Source: an uncultured Flavobacteriaceae bacterium (GTDB lineage: Bacteria; Bacteroidota; Bacteroidia; Flavobacteriales; Flavobacteriaceae). Taken from it: a stretch of 64,000 nt of DNA. This document shows positions 14,789 to 21,047 of this stretch, piece after piece; the first letter of the stretch is position 1; each line of letters begins with the position of its first letter. The position numbers were made by a program, and so were the translations under genes. The stretch spans positions 62,001 to 126,000 of the forward strand of contig CANKYF010000010.1 in NCBI GenBank assembly GCA_947487895.1. The letters run 5' to 3'. The notes under the pieces are model-generated. The model was given only the letters and a program-made list of their open reading frames with translations. It was not told where the DNA came from and searched no databases.

Positions 14789-16264
14789 TTAAACTATAGG
14801 CTTCATAGCCGTCATTGAAGATCTTAAGAATCTACCAATTTTTTCAACTGGATGATTTCTTAAAGTTTCATTGATCTCAATTAGCTTAGCATTATCAACA
14901 CCTTCTCCATTATCTTTTGCATAAGCTTTACCAATAACATCTGTATCGATAGTTTTCATAAAATCTGTTAATAAAGGCTTACAAGCATGATCAAATAAAT
15001 AACATCCGTACTCAGCAGTATCAGAGATTACACGGTTCATTTCATATAATTTCTTTCTTGCAATTGTATTTGCAATTAATGGCGTTTCATGTAATGATTC
15101 ATAGTAAGCAGACTCATCAATAATTCCAGATTCAGTCATAGCTTCAAAAGCCAACTCAACACCTGCACGTACAAATGCTACCATTAACACACCATTATCA
15201 TAATATTCTTGCTCTGAAATTTCAACATCTCCAGCTGGTGTTTTTTCAAAATTAGTTTCAGCAGTAGCTGCTCTCCATCCTAATAAGTTAGCATCACCAT
15301 TAGCCCAGTCTGCCATCATATCTCTTGAGAACACACCTTCCATGATGTCATCCATATGCTTTTGGAATAACGGACGCATGATATCTTTTAATTCTTCAGA
15401 TAGTTCAAACGCTTTAATCTTAGCAGCATTAGAAAGTCTATCCATCATGTTAGTAATACCTCCGTATTTTAAACCTTCGGTTACAGTTTCCCATCCATAT
15501 TGAATTAATTTAGAAGCATATCCTGCATCAATTCCTTGTTCTACCATTTTATCAAAACATAAAATAGATCCAGTTTGTAGCAACCCACAAAGAATAGTTT
15601 GCTCTCCCATTAAATCACTCTTAACCTCAGCAACAAAAGAAGACTCTAAAACACCTGCTCTATCACCACCTGTTGCAACCGCATAAGCTTTAGCTTGTGC
15701 TAAACCTTTTCCTTCTGGATCATTTTCTGGGTGAACAGCAATAAGTGTTGGCACACCAAATCCTCTTTTATACTCTTCACGAACCTCAGAACCTGGAGAC
15801 TTAGGCGCACACATAATTACAGTTAAATCTTCACGAACTTGCATTCCTTCTTCAACAATATTAAAACCATGAGAATACGCTAATGTTGCTCCATTTTTCA
15901 TTAATGGCATAACCGCTTTCACAACATTAGTATGTTGCTTGTCTGGTGTAAGATTTAAAACTAAATCTGCAGTTGGAATTAATTCATCATAAGTACCAAC
16001 ATTAAATCCATTTTCTGAAGCATTAACAAAAGATGCTCTTTTTTCTTTAATAGCTGCTTCACGTAACGTATAAGAAATATCTAATCCAGAATCTCTCATA
16101 TTTAACCCTTGGTTTAACCCTTGAGCTCCACAACCTACTATTACTATTTTTTTGTCTTTTAATGCTTCTACACCGTCTGTAAACTCAGATGCATCCATGA
16201 ATCTACATTTAGACAACTGGTCTAATTTACCTGCTAATGTAAGTGTGTTAAAATAATTTTCCAT
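14789..16264 (-). CDS. ilvC: Ketol-acid reductoisomerase (class II, long form)
   Basis: A 491-residue enzyme that converts 2-acetolactate or 2-aceto-2-hydroxybutyrate to the dihydroxy acids of the valine and isoleucine pathways with NADPH and Mg2+. The Rossmann motif GCGAQG is at 44-49, then [16 protein letters not shown] and [21 protein letters not shown]. The length matches the long E. coli-type enzyme with a doubled C-terminal knotted domain, not the ~330-residue short form. It is the last gene of the ilvDBNC operon, 67 bp after ilvN, and is followed by an intrinsic terminator. Confidence 0.97.
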
Positions 16265-16331: not shown

Positions 16332-16862
16332 TTATTTTTTAACAGCGTCTAACAACTCTGTAACTTTCATTTCGTCTTTAGTAACGGCAATTCTTCCAGA
16401 ACGCACAAATTGCATGATCCCAAAAGCATTTAAATCTCTTCGTAGAGCTTCAATCTCATGGCGTCTTCCTGATTTTTCTAATACAAAGAATTCTTTGTTA
16501 ACCGTTACAATTCTGGTATCACTTTCTTTAATGATATTCTGAATTTGAGGTTCTTCAAATAACAATTCAGACTTAATTTTAAACATACATGATTCAGTAA
16601 AAATAGTTTCATCATCTGTATGATAATAAGCCTTAATGACTTCAACTTGTTTTTCTATTTGTCCAACTATTTTTTTAGCTTGAGTTTCACTCATGTTAAC
16701 AACAATTACAAACCTATTTACATTTTCAATTTCAGATTGTGATGTCGTTAAACTTTCTATATTGATATGTCTACGCTGAAAAATAGCTGAAATACGATTT
16801 AATAAACCAATATTGTTTTCGGTATAAATTGAAATCGTCAATGTTTTTATTTCTTCGTTCAT
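16332..16862 (-). CDS. ilvN: Acetolactate synthase small (regulatory) subunit
   Basis: A 176-residue protein with an N-terminal ACT domain (LTISIYTENNIGLLNRISAIFQRRHINIESL, quoted here only as its start and end: LTISIYTENNIG and RHINIESL) and the small-subunit C-terminal domain (VEVIKAYYHTDD, EIEALRRDLNAFGIMQFVRSGRIAV). It binds the catalytic subunit, raises its activity and confers valine feedback inhibition in known systems. It lies 101 bp after ilvB, a rather wide gap for the operon, and 67 bp before ilvC. Confidence 0.95.
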   Translation of the reverse strand: MNEEIKTLTISIYTENNIGLLNRISAIFQRRHINIESLTTSQSEIENVNRFVIVVNMSETQAKKIVGQIEKQVEVIKAYYHTDDETIFTESCMFKIKSELLFEEPQIQNIIKESDTRIVTVNKEFFVLEKSGRRHEIEALRRDLNAFGIMQFVRSGRIAVTKDEMKVTELLDAVKK

Positions 16863-16963: not shown

Positions 16964-18700
16964 TTAACTTAATCTTACATCTGATACAGAAGCACCCGCC
17001 GGAATCATTGGAAATACATTATCTTCTTTTTCCACACAAACTTCTAAGAAGTATGATGAATCTGAAGCAATCATTTCTTTAACAACATCTGCCAATTCCT
17101 CGCGTTTTGTAACGCGTTTAGCATCTATGTGATATCCTTTAGCAATAGTTACAAAATCTGGATTAGTCATTTCTGTAGACGCATAACGCTTATCGAAAAA
17201 CAATTGTTGCCACTGACGTACCATCCCTAGAAACTCATTGTTTAATACCACAATCTTAACTGGTACTTTTTGCTGAAAAATGGTACCTAACTCTTGAATA
17301 TTCATTTGATAACCACCATCTCCAATAATAGCAACAACTTCTCTATCTGGAGCCGCCATTTTAGCGCCAATTGCAGCTGGTAAAGCAAACCCCATTGTTC
17401 CCAGACCACCAGATGTGATATTACTTTTAGTAATATTAAAATCCGCATATCTACAGGCTATCATTTGATGTTGACCAACATCAGACACTATTGCTGCATT
17501 ACCTTTTGTTTGCGTATTAATTTCTCTAAGCACCTCACCCATAGTAAGACCTTCCTTTTCAGGAAGTATGTCTCCTTTAATGACTTGCTCAAATTCAACT
17601 TTATATAATTCTTTAAACTCTTGAAGCCAACTTTCATGAGAATTAGCTTCTAATTCATTTAATAACAACGCTAAGCTTTCTTTTGCATTCCCAAGAACTG
17701 CTACATCTGTTTTTACGTTTTTATCTATCTCAGCAGGATCAATATCAAAATGAATGATTTTAGCTTGTTTAGCATACGTATTTAAGTCTCCTGTAACACG
17801 ATCATCAAAACGCATTCCTATGGCAATTAACACATCACACTCATTGGTTAATTTGTTAGGTGCATAGTTACCATGCATACCAACCATACCAACATTTAAT
17901 GGATGTGACGTTGGAATTGCTGAAGCTCCTAAAATTGTCCAAGACGCAGGCACTCCAGATTTTTCAATCACAGTCTTAAGTTCTTCTTCTGCCTCGCCTA
18001 GAATAACCCCTTGACCCCAAACTATGAATGGTTTTTTGGCATTATTAATTAATTCTGCCGCAGCTTTTACAGATTCTATATTAGTTTTTGGTACTGGGTT
18101 ATAACTTCTTACTCCTGTACATTTTTCATATTTAAAATCAAACTCTTGAAGCTGAGCATCTTTAGTAATATCTATTAAAACAGGTCCTGGCCTACCGCTT
18201 TTTGCTAAATAAAAAGCTTTAGCTATAACTTCAGGGATATCCTCTGCTTTAGTTACTTGATGATTCCATTTTGTTACAGGTGTAGATATACCTACTATGT
18301 CTGTTTCTTGAAATGCATCACTACCTAACAAATGAGAAAACACTTGTCCAGTAATACATACTAAAGGTGTAGAGTCAATTTGCGCATCTGCAATACCAGT
18401 CACTAAATTAGTTGCTCCTGGTCCAGAAGTTGCCATAGCGACACCTACTTTACCAGAAATTCTTGCATACCCTTGAGCTGCATGAGCTGCTCCCTGTTCA
18501 TGACGTGTTAACACGTGATGAATTTTATCTTGGTATTTAAATAATTCATCATAAACTGGCATTATTGCACCTCCAGGATACCCATAAAGAATGTCTACGC
18601 CTTCAGCTATTAAACATCTAATAATAGCTTCACAACCTGTGATACGCTCAGTTTTTATAGCGTTTGTTTTATTTTGTTCAATTGTTTGTGTTTCCTTCAT
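16964..18700 (-). CDS. ilvB: Acetolactate synthase large (catalytic) subunit
   Basis: A 578-residue thiamine-diphosphate enzyme. The N-terminal domain has GYPGGAIMPVYD and TRHEQGAAHAAQGYAR with the catalytic Glu68. The middle FAD-type domain is present, and the C-terminal cofactor domain shows GDGGYQMNIQELGT and NNEFLGMVRQWQ. Length and order are those of AHAS catalytic subunits. It condenses pyruvate with pyruvate or 2-oxobutyrate, the first common step to valine, leucine and isoleucine. It is 43 bp after ilvD in the operon. Confidence 0.96.
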   Translation of the reverse strand: MKETQTIEQNKTNAIKTERITGCEAIIRCLIAEGVDILYGYPGGAIMPVYDELFKYQDKIHHVLTRHEQGAAHAAQGYARISGKVGVAMATSGPGATNLVTGIADAQIDSTPLVCITGQVFSHLLGSDAFQETDIVGISTPVTKWNHQVTKAEDIPEVIAKAFYLAKSGRPGPVLIDITKDAQLQEFDFKYEKCTGVRSYNPVPKTNIESVKAAAELINNAKKPFIVWGQGVILGEAEEELKTVIEKSGVPASWTILGASAIPTSHPLNVGMVGMHGNYAPNKLTNECDVLIAIGMRFDDRVTGDLNTYAKQAKIIHFDIDPAEIDKNVKTDVAVLGNAKESLALLLNELEANSHESWLQEFKELYKVEFEQVIKGDILPEKEGLTMGEVLREINTQTKGNAAIVSDVGQHQMIACRYADFNITKSNITSGGLGTMGFALPAAIGAKMAAPDREVVAIIGDGGYQMNIQELGTIFQQKVPVKIVVLNNEFLGMVRQWQQLFFDKRYASTEMTNPDFVTIAKGYHIDAKRVTKREELADVVKEMIASDSSYFLEVCVEKEDNVFPMIPAGASVSDVRLS

Positions 18701-18743: not shown

Positions 18744-20426
18744 TTAATACTTATCTGTTACACATCCTTCTGATGCAGACGCCACAGATCTTGCGTATTT
18801 AAATAGTATTCCTTTATTGAATTTTAATGCTGGTGCTTGCCACTTTGCTTTTCTACTAGCCATTTCTTCATCAGAAATATTTAGTGTAATACTGTTATCT
18901 ACAGCATCAATAGTTATAACATCTCCAGTTTCAACAAGAGCAATAGCGCCTCCAACTTGTGCCTCAGGAGTTACATGCCCTACTACGAAACCGTGTGTAC
19001 CTCCAGAAAAACGACCATCGGTAATTAACGCTACAGATTTACCTAAACCTGCTCCCATAATCATAGAGGTGGGCTTCAACATTTCTGGCATTCCAGGACC
19101 TCCTTTTGGTCCAACATAACGAATAACAACAACATTTCCTTTTTCTACTTCTCCATTAGAGATTCCTTCGTTTGCTTCAGGTTCACTGTCATAGACGACT
19201 GCTTTTCCTTCAAACTTTAAACCTTCTTTTCCAGATATTTTTGCTACCGCTCCTTCTTCCGCTAGGTTACCTCTTAAAATTTGTAGGTTACCTGATGGTT
19301 TTAATGCTTTATCTAAGCTATATAGTAAATCTTGCTCCTCAAACTCCATTGCTTCAACATCTGCAAGATTTTCTGCCAATGTTTTACCTGTTACTGTCAT
19401 ACAATCACCATGCAAGAATCCTTTCTCTAACAAGTATTTCATGATTTTAGGAGTACCTCCAATACTGTGAACGTCTTCCATTAAATATTTTCCAGATGGT
19501 TTTAAATCACCAATAAGAGGTGTTTTATCACTTATTCTTTGAAAATCTTCTAAAGTAAAATCTATATCAGCAGCATAAGCAATTGCTAAATAATGTAATA
19601 CCGCATTGGTAGAACCTCCAAGTGCATTAACTAGAGTAATAGCATTTTCAATAGACTTTTTGGTAACAATGTCTTTTGGTTTTAAATCTAATTCCAAAAG
19701 ATTTTTCATAGCCTTGGCAGTACGTTCTGCTTCCGTAAGTTTATTAGGGTTTACAGCTGGTATAGAAGAATTATAAGGCAATGCCATACCCATACACTCT
19801 ATAGAAGATGCCATAGTGTTTGCTGTATACATTCCTCCACATGCTCCTGCTCCAGGAATAGATTTTTTAATAATCTCCTTATATTCAGCTTCATCAATTT
19901 CTCCAGCTATTTTTTGTCCTAAGGCTTCAAATGCAGAAACAATATTTAACTTACGTCCTTTATATTTACCTGAAGCAACACTTCCTCCATATACCATAAT
20001 AGAGGGCCTGTTAAGCCTTAACATTGCTATAATAGCTCCTGGCATATTTTTATCACACCCCACAACTCCAATTAATCCATCATAAGCCATACCGTTTACT
20101 ACAGTTTCCATTGAATCTGCAATGATATCTCTAGAAGCTAAAGAATACTTCATTCCTGGTGTTCCCATAGAAATACCATCAGAAACACCAATAGTACCAA
20201 ACGTTAACCCTACTTGTCCAGCTTCGTTTACGTGTTTTTTTATTTCTTCGGCTATACCATTTAAATGCATATTACATGGATTTCCATCATATCCAGTGCT
20301 TCCAATTGCAATTTGAGCTTTTTTCAAATCTTCTTCTGTTAAGCCTGTTGCATAAAGCATAGCCTGAGAAGCTGGTTGAGAAGGATTCTGAGTAACTGTT
20401 TTACTATATTTATTAAGTTCGCTCAT
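18744..20426 (-). CDS. ilvD: Dihydroxy-acid dehydratase
   Basis: A 560-residue iron-sulphur enzyme catalysing the third common step of branched-chain amino acid synthesis. Cluster cysteines are seen in [26 protein letters not shown] and [14 protein letters not shown], and the C-terminal lid has [19 protein letters not shown]. It is the first structural gene of the operon. Its start lies about 240 bp below an intrinsic terminator and a leader peptide rich in branched-chain residues, so its expression is probably set by attenuation. Confidence 0.96.
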
Positions 20427-20661
20427 GTTTCTTATTAATATTTTTAAATCTTATTTAGATATTTTATGATATTTTGATGATTTTAAGACTTTTTATAAAA
20501 AAAGCTTATTTATAGTCAACGAAAATAATTCTTTAGGTATTTATTAGCTTTTTTTAATGATTATGCTAGTTAAATTCACTACACTTAAAAAAAATACAAC
20601 AAATTGAAAATCAGATAATTAATATCGAAATTTTATGATGTCCAATAGCCTAAAAAATTTC

Positions 20662-20695
20662 ATAAAAAAACCTTCCTTAGAAATATAGGAAGGTT
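20662..20695 (-). terminator. ilv attenuator terminator
   Basis: On the minus strand AACCTTCCT (20695-20687) and AGGAAGGTT (20677-20669) form a perfect 9-bp stem followed by a run of T residues to 20662. It lies between the leader peptide and ilvD and is oriented for minus-strand transcription. The first arm can instead pair with the segment at 20719-20729. Confidence 0.8.
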
Positions 20696-20718
20696 AATTT
20701 TATAATATTATTTCAAAT

Positions 20719-20729
20719 AACACTTCCTA
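20719..20729 (-). promoter_or_regulatory. Antiterminator arm of the ilv attenuator
   Basis: The minus-strand sequence TAGGAAGTGTT begins exactly at the leader peptide's stop codon. It can form ten base pairs with one bulged base with AACCTTCCTA, the first arm of the terminator. A ribosome that reaches the stop codon would cover this arm and let the terminator form; a ribosome stalled earlier would leave it free. Confidence 0.65.
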
Positions 20730-20789
20730 TTGCAGTAGAGAGACCTCTAAGACAATAATAGAAATGATATTTAAAACTTGTTTTTTCAT
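20727..20789 (-). CDS. ilv operon leader peptide (20 residues)
   Basis: A short reading frame with an ATG at 20787-20789 and a TAG at 20727-20729 encodes MKKQVLNIISIIVLEVSLLQ. Eleven of its 20 residues are Ile, Val or Leu, including four Ile, three Val and four Leu. It lies on the same strand as ilvDBNC, 32 bases above the first arm of an intrinsic terminator that precedes ilvD. This is the layout of a branched-chain amino acid attenuator: scarcity of charged tRNA stalls the ribosome and favours read-through. It is too short for homology and would normally be missed by gene callers. The promoter is uncertain: AATATTTG just above it deviates from the TAnnTTTG form and would give a very short 5' leader. 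Confidence 0.75.
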   Translation of the reverse strand: MKKQVLNIISIIVLEVSLLQ

Positions 20790-20853
20790 ATTAACACTGC
20801 AAATATTAATTTTTAAAAAGTAGCAACCAATTTTTTTTAATAAAAAAATAAAA

Positions 20854-20888: not shown

Positions 20889-20901
20889 TCAACATAACAA
20901 T

Positions 20902-20996
20902 AGAGGAAAGATTTGACTGATTGCAACCTCTTTATACTGAACTGTTTTACAAATACATTATAATTGTTCAGCATAAAAAAAAATGCTAAAGGCAGT
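20902..20996 (+). promoter_or_regulatory. SAM-II-like riboswitch with an extended internal hairpin
   Basis: AGAGG (20902-20906) pairs with CCTCT (20927-20931) around a loop containing GATTTGACTGATTGCAA, which resembles the conserved SAM-II loop (GAUUU...UUGCA). After an inserted hairpin (CTGAAC 20937-20942 with GTTCAG 20966-20971) comes GCTAAAGGCAGT (20985-20996), matching the SAM-II GCUAAA segment. CAGT (20993-20996) can pair with ACTG (20916-20919) to close the pseudoknot. It sits directly upstream of metK, whose product makes SAM. The inserted hairpin is longer than in the classical 52-base form; I recall long-loop SAM-II variants from Bacteroidota but could not check. Confidence 0.72.
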
Positions 20997-21047
20997 GTTA
21001 ACTTCCTTGACGTTTTCCGTCAAATCTCACTCATAAATTTATACATA

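Follow-up and report, generated by a model that had tools for sequence, protein, structure and literature searches.

A probable ribosome-mediated attenuator upstream of ilvDBNC in an uncultured Flavobacteriaceae bacterium and its recurrence in relatives

In E. coli, the ilvGMEDA, ilvBN, and leuABCD operons are controlled by leader-peptide attenuators whose RNA segments form the alternative pairings 1:2, 2:3, and 3:4 and whose segment 1 lies in the codons of the leader. The best-known cases of leader-peptide attenuation come from Proteobacteria and Actinobacteria. A 2010 survey describes leader peptides as known in these two groups and adds His leaders of Firmicutes; apart from the atypical ermC leader, its authors were aware of no earlier demonstration in other bacteria (PMC2965389). 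Short frames reminiscent of leader peptides are mentioned for Bacteroides thetaiotaomicron in another study (PMC7366714). For F. psychrophilum, a further paper reports strong clues for leader-peptide attenuation, with structured 5' regions before amino acid biosynthesis operons, and notes that the elements before hisG and pheA are present in other genera too (PMC9723704); the main text of that paper contains no word beginning with ilv. Among titles and abstracts we found nothing on ilv attenuation in Bacteroidota, and Lyubetsky 2007 and Lopatovskaya 2010 may cover the phylum. Leader-peptide attenuation in a flavobacterium is thus already published in general terms (PMC9723704). What the present analysis adds is the covariation of the pairings, serial attenuators, His-rich hisG leaders, and a rigidly spaced block downstream of the ilv terminator.

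The window analyzed here is a stretch of 64,000 nucleotides that carries ilvD-ilvB-ilvN-ilvC one after another on its minus strand (Table 1). Judging from its sequence and that of its relatives, ilvDBNC is very probably preceded by a classic four-segment ribosome-mediated transcription attenuator, and this leader unit most likely halts transcription when branched-chain amino acids are plentiful. As in the E. coli ilvGMEDA, ilvBN, and leuABCD attenuators, there is a leader rich in branched-chain residues, a terminator before the first gene, the same three pairings, and a segment 1 borne by leader codons. Unlike the E. coli ilv and leu systems, the unit matches no Rfam leader family at threshold, has a very short predicted 5' untranslated region, occurs as two attenuators in series at 12 of the 78 ilvD loci that carry it, and is followed past its terminator by a separate promoter-like block. 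It is similar to the F. psychrophilum elements in that these come from a related bacterium and leader-peptide attenuation has been proposed for them (PMC9723704). The best Rfam leader family was Phe_leader (RF01859), which gave a weak full-length alignment on the correct strand (20662-20790), scoring 23.5 bits where its gathering threshold is 55 (E = 0.11); the ilv leader contains no Phe. No riboswitch or T-box in Rfam matched the ilv leader at gathering scores. Control of the operon by a riboswitch or T-box was rejected on this Rfam search, the sole riboswitch detected being a SAM-II (long loop) element on the opposite strand (20897-20999, plus) before metK. This element is divergent from the ilv operon, so that two amino acid-related RNA switches stand back to back. 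A search of a plasmid collection found no similar DNA.

Table 1. Features of the ilv region, in positions of the window
Feature	Position	Strand	Basis
Candidate promoter P1: TTG (20830-20828), 20 nt, -7 box AATATTTG (20807-20800)	20800-20830	minus	Box recurrence in relatives
Leader peptide ORF MKKQVLNIISIIVLEVSLLQ, stop TAG 20729-20727	20727-20789	minus	ORF call; related frames in relatives
Segment 1, leader codons 6-10, partner of segment 2	20760-20774	minus	Fold, permutation z -5.8, covariation
Segment 2, starts at stop codon; alternative partners segment 1 and segment 3	20713-20730	minus	Fold, RNAduplex, permutation
Segment 3, 5' terminator arm	20687-20695	minus	Fold; 2:3 permutation z -3.8
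Segment 4, 3' terminator arm (20677-20669) and T-run (20670-20664)	20664-20677	minus	Fold; 3:4 permutation z -10.6
TTGGACATCATA, first element of candidate P2 block	20634-20645	minus	Motif in 45/185 loci, reverse strand 0/185
TGAATTTAACT, 67 nt beyond first P2 motif	20568-20578	minus	Spacing in relatives
TATTTTCG, TAnnTTTG-like, candidate -7 box of P2, 118 nt from first motif	20520-20527	minus	Spacing in relatives
ilvD	18744-20426	minus	Pfam PF00920, PF24877
ilvB, acetolactate synthase large subunit	16964-18700	minus	Pfam TPP enzyme domains; name inferred from Pfam and context
ilvN/ilvH, acetolactate synthase small subunit	16332-16862	minus	PF10369, PF22629
ilvC, ketol-acid reductoisomerase	14789-16264	minus	PF07991, PF01450

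The original prediction, made from the letters of the window, described a 20-residue leader with 11 branched-chain residues followed by an intrinsic terminator before ilvD, and both are found. The leader has 20 codons, 11 of the 19 residues after Met are Ile, Leu, or Val, and its ATG lies 363 nt 5' of the ilvD start. The terminator (20695-20664) begins 31 nt 3' of the leader stop codon and ends ~240 nt 5' of ilvD; it consists of a 9-bp stem (AACCUUCCU/AGGAAGGUU), a 9-nt loop, and a T-run, and its hairpin folds at -11.8 kcal/mol (z = -3.7), a value equaled by none of 200 shuffles. A consensus terminator scan listed 0 terminators, the scanner permitting loops of 3 to 8 nt and the loop here being 9 nt.

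The same combination recurs in relatives. The sample was 185 regions upstream of ilvD, with the window included, of which 80 came from named records and 105 from genomes of the same family; ilvD was present in 110 of 149 such genomes, and G057, G064, G065, and the split G062 were left out of the 105 loci used. Two loci were removed (L001, the same place as L082, and L182, with 61 bases), and one retained region, L106, has just 271 bases 5' of ilvD. The 185 regions do not equal 185 independent genomes, as there are duplicate records (L012/L114 and L025/L091, with the last 400 bases identical, and L034/L176, with contigs of equal length). A unit was called when a frame of 12 to 42 codons with at least 7 Ile, Val, or Leu per 12 residues was followed within 100 nt 3' by TTTT and a hairpin at least as stable as -10 kcal/mol. 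By this rule 78 of the 185 loci have a leader and terminator 5' of ilvD (28/80 from named records and 50/105 from family genomes; 77/184 without the window), compared with 6/185 on the reverse strand; dinucleotide shuffling, repeated three times, yielded 0, 0, and 1 of 185. An earlier count by other rules gave 52 of 111 loci; we rely on 78/185. The conserved short Ile/Val/Leu-rich frame that the original prediction proposed looking for in relatives, and whose absence it had named as a refutation, is present at the 78 loci; 107 of the 185 received no call. Carriers include Algibacter, Lutibacter, Meridianimaribacter, Dokdonia, Aquimarina, Gaetbulibacter, Winogradskyella, and Flavobacterium, and further Saprospiraceae, Sediminibacterium, Segetibacter, Runella, and one Ignavibacteriae metagenome-assembled genome (MAG); these names are record titles and possibly wrong, and some of the records are MAGs. 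In near relatives the leader peptide resembles MKKQILNIISIIVIVIISQR.

We inspected 15 of the 107 uncalled loci by eye. L083, whose IlvD is the closest of those sampled (85%), still has the terminator, and its leader contains only 7 Ile, Val, or Leu residues; in L102 the RNA arms are kept and the frame is broken; the leader of L005 is shorter; and the hairpin of L098, at -9.3, falls narrowly below the limit. No recognizable unit was seen at L085, L099, L100, and others of the 15. To the eye, the attenuators of the close relatives L083, L095, and L102 look decayed, with fewer Ile/Val/Leu codons, a weakened terminator, or a broken frame.

Over 93 leader frames (3 of them dropped later), Ile makes up 29% of residues, Val 14%, and Leu 7%. 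This suggests that Ile and Val may be the main signals, a reading for which only the ratio is informative, since the frames were picked for Ile, Val, and Leu together. In the 19 leaders of 20 codons, entropy per codon position is 0.71/0.44/0.80; position 2 is the least variable, which is partly an effect of choosing Ile/Val/Leu-rich frames.

Promoter-like elements lie on both sides of the unit: a -7 box is found upstream of many leaders, and a conserved promoter-like block is found downstream of the terminator. The upstream box in the window, AATATTTG, is 10 nt 5' of the leader ATG and has one mismatch to TAnnTTTG, the sigma-A -7 box of F. psychrophilum (PMC9723704). In a loose test that had no shuffle control, 66 of the 78 leaders have, no more than 35 nt from the ATG, a box that agrees with TAnnTTTG at 5 or all 6 of its defined positions. 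The best box chosen by the script in the window was TACTTTTT (20822-20815), with a score equal to that of AATATTTG; we preferred the latter by eye since many relatives carry the box. A scan for the sigma-70 consensus found fewer sites than in shuffles.

The downstream block, candidate P2, has a first motif, TTG(A/G)(A/G)(C/T)(A/G)TCATA, that is found between the terminator and ilvD in 45 of 185 loci and in none on the reverse strand. Among these 45 loci, a TGAATTTAAC-like sequence lies at exactly 67 nt in 34 (counted by hand), and in 43 the first motif is followed at 118 or 119 nt by a TAnnTT(T/C/A)G box. The block in the window (20645-20520) folds no better than shuffles (z = 0.03), and we reject it as a structured RNA. 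A spacing that stays constant while the sequence in between varies points to a promoter and DNA sites rather than to RNA. The exact motif TTGRACATCATA was rejected as a genome-wide operator: it has 3 occurrences in the genome, and the other two are at unrelated-looking genes. P2 may be a second, unattenuated promoter that adds its own expression, and, should it be active, some ilv expression would escape attenuation. The original prediction had named a transcription start downstream of the terminator as evidence against an attenuator, and a candidate P2 at this place is a weak form of that evidence.

A stronger version of this possibility is that ilv expression comes mainly from P2, with the leader unit contributing little or being in decay. 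The kept spacing of the block in 43 of 45 loci, the absence of an attenuator call in 18 of the 45 loci with the P2 motif, and the decayed-looking leaders of close relatives are all in its favor, but the leader frame and both hairpins are intact in the window and the helices covary in relatives, and we regard dominance of P2 as unlikely, if a possibility of some weight.

The evidence for four segments comes from the alternative pairings. In the window, the minimum-energy fold of 20655-20800 consists of two hairpins, 1:2 and 3:4, at -40.2 kcal/mol (z = -5.6), and the 1:2 hairpin by itself (20713-20789) folds at -20.2 kcal/mol (z = -4.1); none of 200 shuffles was as good in either case. In the 1:2 hairpin, leader codons 6 to 10 pair with AGGAAGUGUUAUUUGA, whose start is in the stop codon. 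With RNAduplex, 1:2 reaches -18.6 kcal/mol (0/100 shuffles as good), or -15.3 kcal/mol with narrower segments (1/200), and is stronger than 2:3, which reaches -10.6 kcal/mol, a value equaled by none of 100 shuffles of segment 2. This last pairing is the one described in the original prediction, in which an antiterminator arm, UAGGAAGUGUU, starts at the stop codon and pairs with the first terminator arm, and it holds. Together, 1:2, 2:3, and 3:4 are the classic four-segment set.

These pairings were compared among homologues by partner permutation, in which segments are exchanged among 39 homologous attenuators (chosen by hand, with the window included) and the pairing energies of these swapped partners are set against those of partners from one and the same locus. 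Own partners are better than swapped partners for 1:2 (z = -5.8), 2:3 (z = -3.8), and 3:4 (z = -10.6), each with 0 of 2,000 permutations as good, and the off-model pairings in the same 39 show no preference for own partners (1:3, z = -0.5; 1:4, z = -0.6; 2:4, z = -0.1). By the cruder measure of own energy at or below the row median, 1:2 stands at 33/39 and 3:4 at 35/39, compared with controls of 25/39 for 1:3, 25/39 for 1:4, and 20/39 for 2:4; at 25/39, 2:3 is no higher than 1:3 and 1:4 and thus is not distinct by this measure. In a plain MAFFT alignment of 32 of the 39 or similar loci, again chosen by hand and including the window, with the structure drawn from L012, helices 1:2 and 3:4 have two-sided changes in 11 of 19 pairs (7 of 11 in 1:2), compared with 5.7 in shuffles (0/500 as high) and 5 or 6 in slid controls. 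For 2:3, two-sided changes on fixed columns occur in 5 of 9 pairs, a number reached by 13 of 500 shuffles; across measures, 9 to 61 of 500 shuffles are as high, and a slide of -1 is nearly equal. In such column counts the signal of 2:3 exceeds the control only weakly; its register differs between loci, and fixed columns are unable to track such shifts. Relatedness of the sequences inflates both the covariation and the permutation tests, and the best guard against this is that the three off-model pairings show no such signal.

In a larger set of 90 attenuators, obtained after dropping by reading the second matches of L026 and L059 and the first of L103, a locus-wise shuffle test (at most 5/100 as good) is passed by 1:2 in 54 and by 2:3 in 49. 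When segment 2 is placed narrowly by its best 2:3 match, 1:2 passes (at most 10/200) in only 27 of the 90. Measured from where the stop codon ends, segment 2 starts at -7 to +9 nt in 72 of the 90; in the other 18, L040, L041, L044, L046, L048, L052, and L177 among them, it lies within the 3' end of the leader frame.

These results bear on the form of attenuator first proposed for this locus, in which segment 1 was overlooked and three segments, simpler than in E. coli, were thought to suffice, with segment 2 masked only by a ribosome at the stop codon. Segment 2 does begin at the stop codon, and where it lies inside the leader end, 1:2 beats shuffles in just 3 of 18 loci versus 24 of 72 elsewhere, and a three-segment design may apply to some of these relatives. 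For the window, however, 1:2 outranks 2:3 and covaries among homologues, and on these grounds of energy and covariation we reject the three-segment design there as very improbable. The original identification of a ribosome-mediated ilv attenuator is upheld by the leader, the terminator, and the covarying helices in relatives; its three-segment form is not.

The comparative sequence data support a recurrent leader, terminator, and three alternative helices, and on the model of the E. coli attenuators, from which we infer stalling, ribosome-polymerase coupling, and the sign of the response, the four-segment unit would work as follows. Transcription would start from P1, just 5' of the leader gene. 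With ample charged Ile, Val, and Leu tRNAs, the ribosome would reach the stop codon and cover segment 2, or, after its release, segment 1 would pair with segment 2. Segment 2 would be occupied either way, so that the 3:4 terminator would form and transcription would end near 20664. Under tRNA shortage, the ribosome would stall on leader codons 8 to 14 and sit on segment 1, leaving segment 2 free for 2:3, which would block the terminator and allow the operon to be read. The geometry fits both states: in most attenuators (72 of 90) the start of segment 2 is so close to the stop codon that a terminating ribosome would cover it, and in the window the Ile/Val/Leu codons 8 to 14 overlap or directly follow segment 1, so that a stalled ribosome would cover segment 1 and free segment 2.

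A comparable leader precedes hisG in the genome of the window, where a His-rich leader, MTFIQTHHHFHICSQAK, and a terminator lie at C2:175789-175736 on the minus strand (L199). We found hisG in 49 of 60 family genomes and examined 30 loci, including that of the window's genome (L199, L204-L232), for a leader frame that has 3 or more His within 8 residues and, after it, a hairpin with a T-run. Such a leader is present before hisG in 29 of the 30 (the miss is L205) and never on the reverse strand, from which leader-peptide attenuation looks common in Flavobacteriaceae. Leader translation might instead act by masking alone, as a general sensor of translation that senses no amino acid, and the geometry alone would indeed answer any translation block; the residues match the operon, however, with Ile, Val, and Leu before ilvD and runs of His before hisG, and we give masking alone very little credence, even less than the three-segment design. 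That the frame encodes a functional small hydrophobic protein, with the hairpin merely the terminator of its gene, is hardly credible: the frame and its hydrophobic residues do recur, but neither of the two leaders that were scanned matched Pfam at E = 0.01 or NCBIfam above its cut-off, the NIIS codons fall on segment 1, which covaries with the noncoding segment 2, and leader length and sequence vary widely across loci.

The 12 ilvD loci with serial attenuators are L008, L027, L035, L036, L103, L113, L124, L129, L148, L156, L159, and L170. In 10 of them the second attenuator has a CCTGT(A/G)TC-type terminator. This second type occurs alone in nine listed loci, and the stop codon TGA begins the antiterminator arm in all nine (TGATACAG and similar) and in 3 of the 10 second copies (L008, L159, and L170). 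One possible reading of these observations, to which we give somewhat less than even weight, is a layered ilv switch in Flavobacteriaceae and relatives, in which one or two attenuators would be followed by an independent promoter with two protein-binding sites (at fixed 67- and 118-nt spacing), blending attenuated and unattenuated transcripts. This reading would distinguish attenuators of type A, with a CCTTCC/GGAAGG terminator, from those of type B, with CCTGTATC/GATACAG and, in solitary copies, a TGA that opens the antiterminator arm. If it is true, serial attenuators could sharpen the response or sense two amino acids. Of all these features, the serial attenuators and P2 most merit follow-up.

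Probable attenuators of ilv and his can be traced through Flavobacteriaceae and into other groups. Close relatives show intact, decayed, and serial copies, and gain and loss of attenuators are thereby directly testable. The leaders could also account simply for the early stops and unannotated short frames that lie before amino acid operons in flavobacterial transcriptomes. By reading, no Ile/Val/Leu-rich frame with a terminator was found directly upstream of two leuA-like clusters in the same genome (L200 and L203). In this genome, a short Thr-rich frame (TTTNTTT) lies just 5' of the aspartokinase/homoserine dehydrogenase gene (C2:51927-51820, minus; L198); it has no clear terminator and is preceded by a TACTTTTG box.
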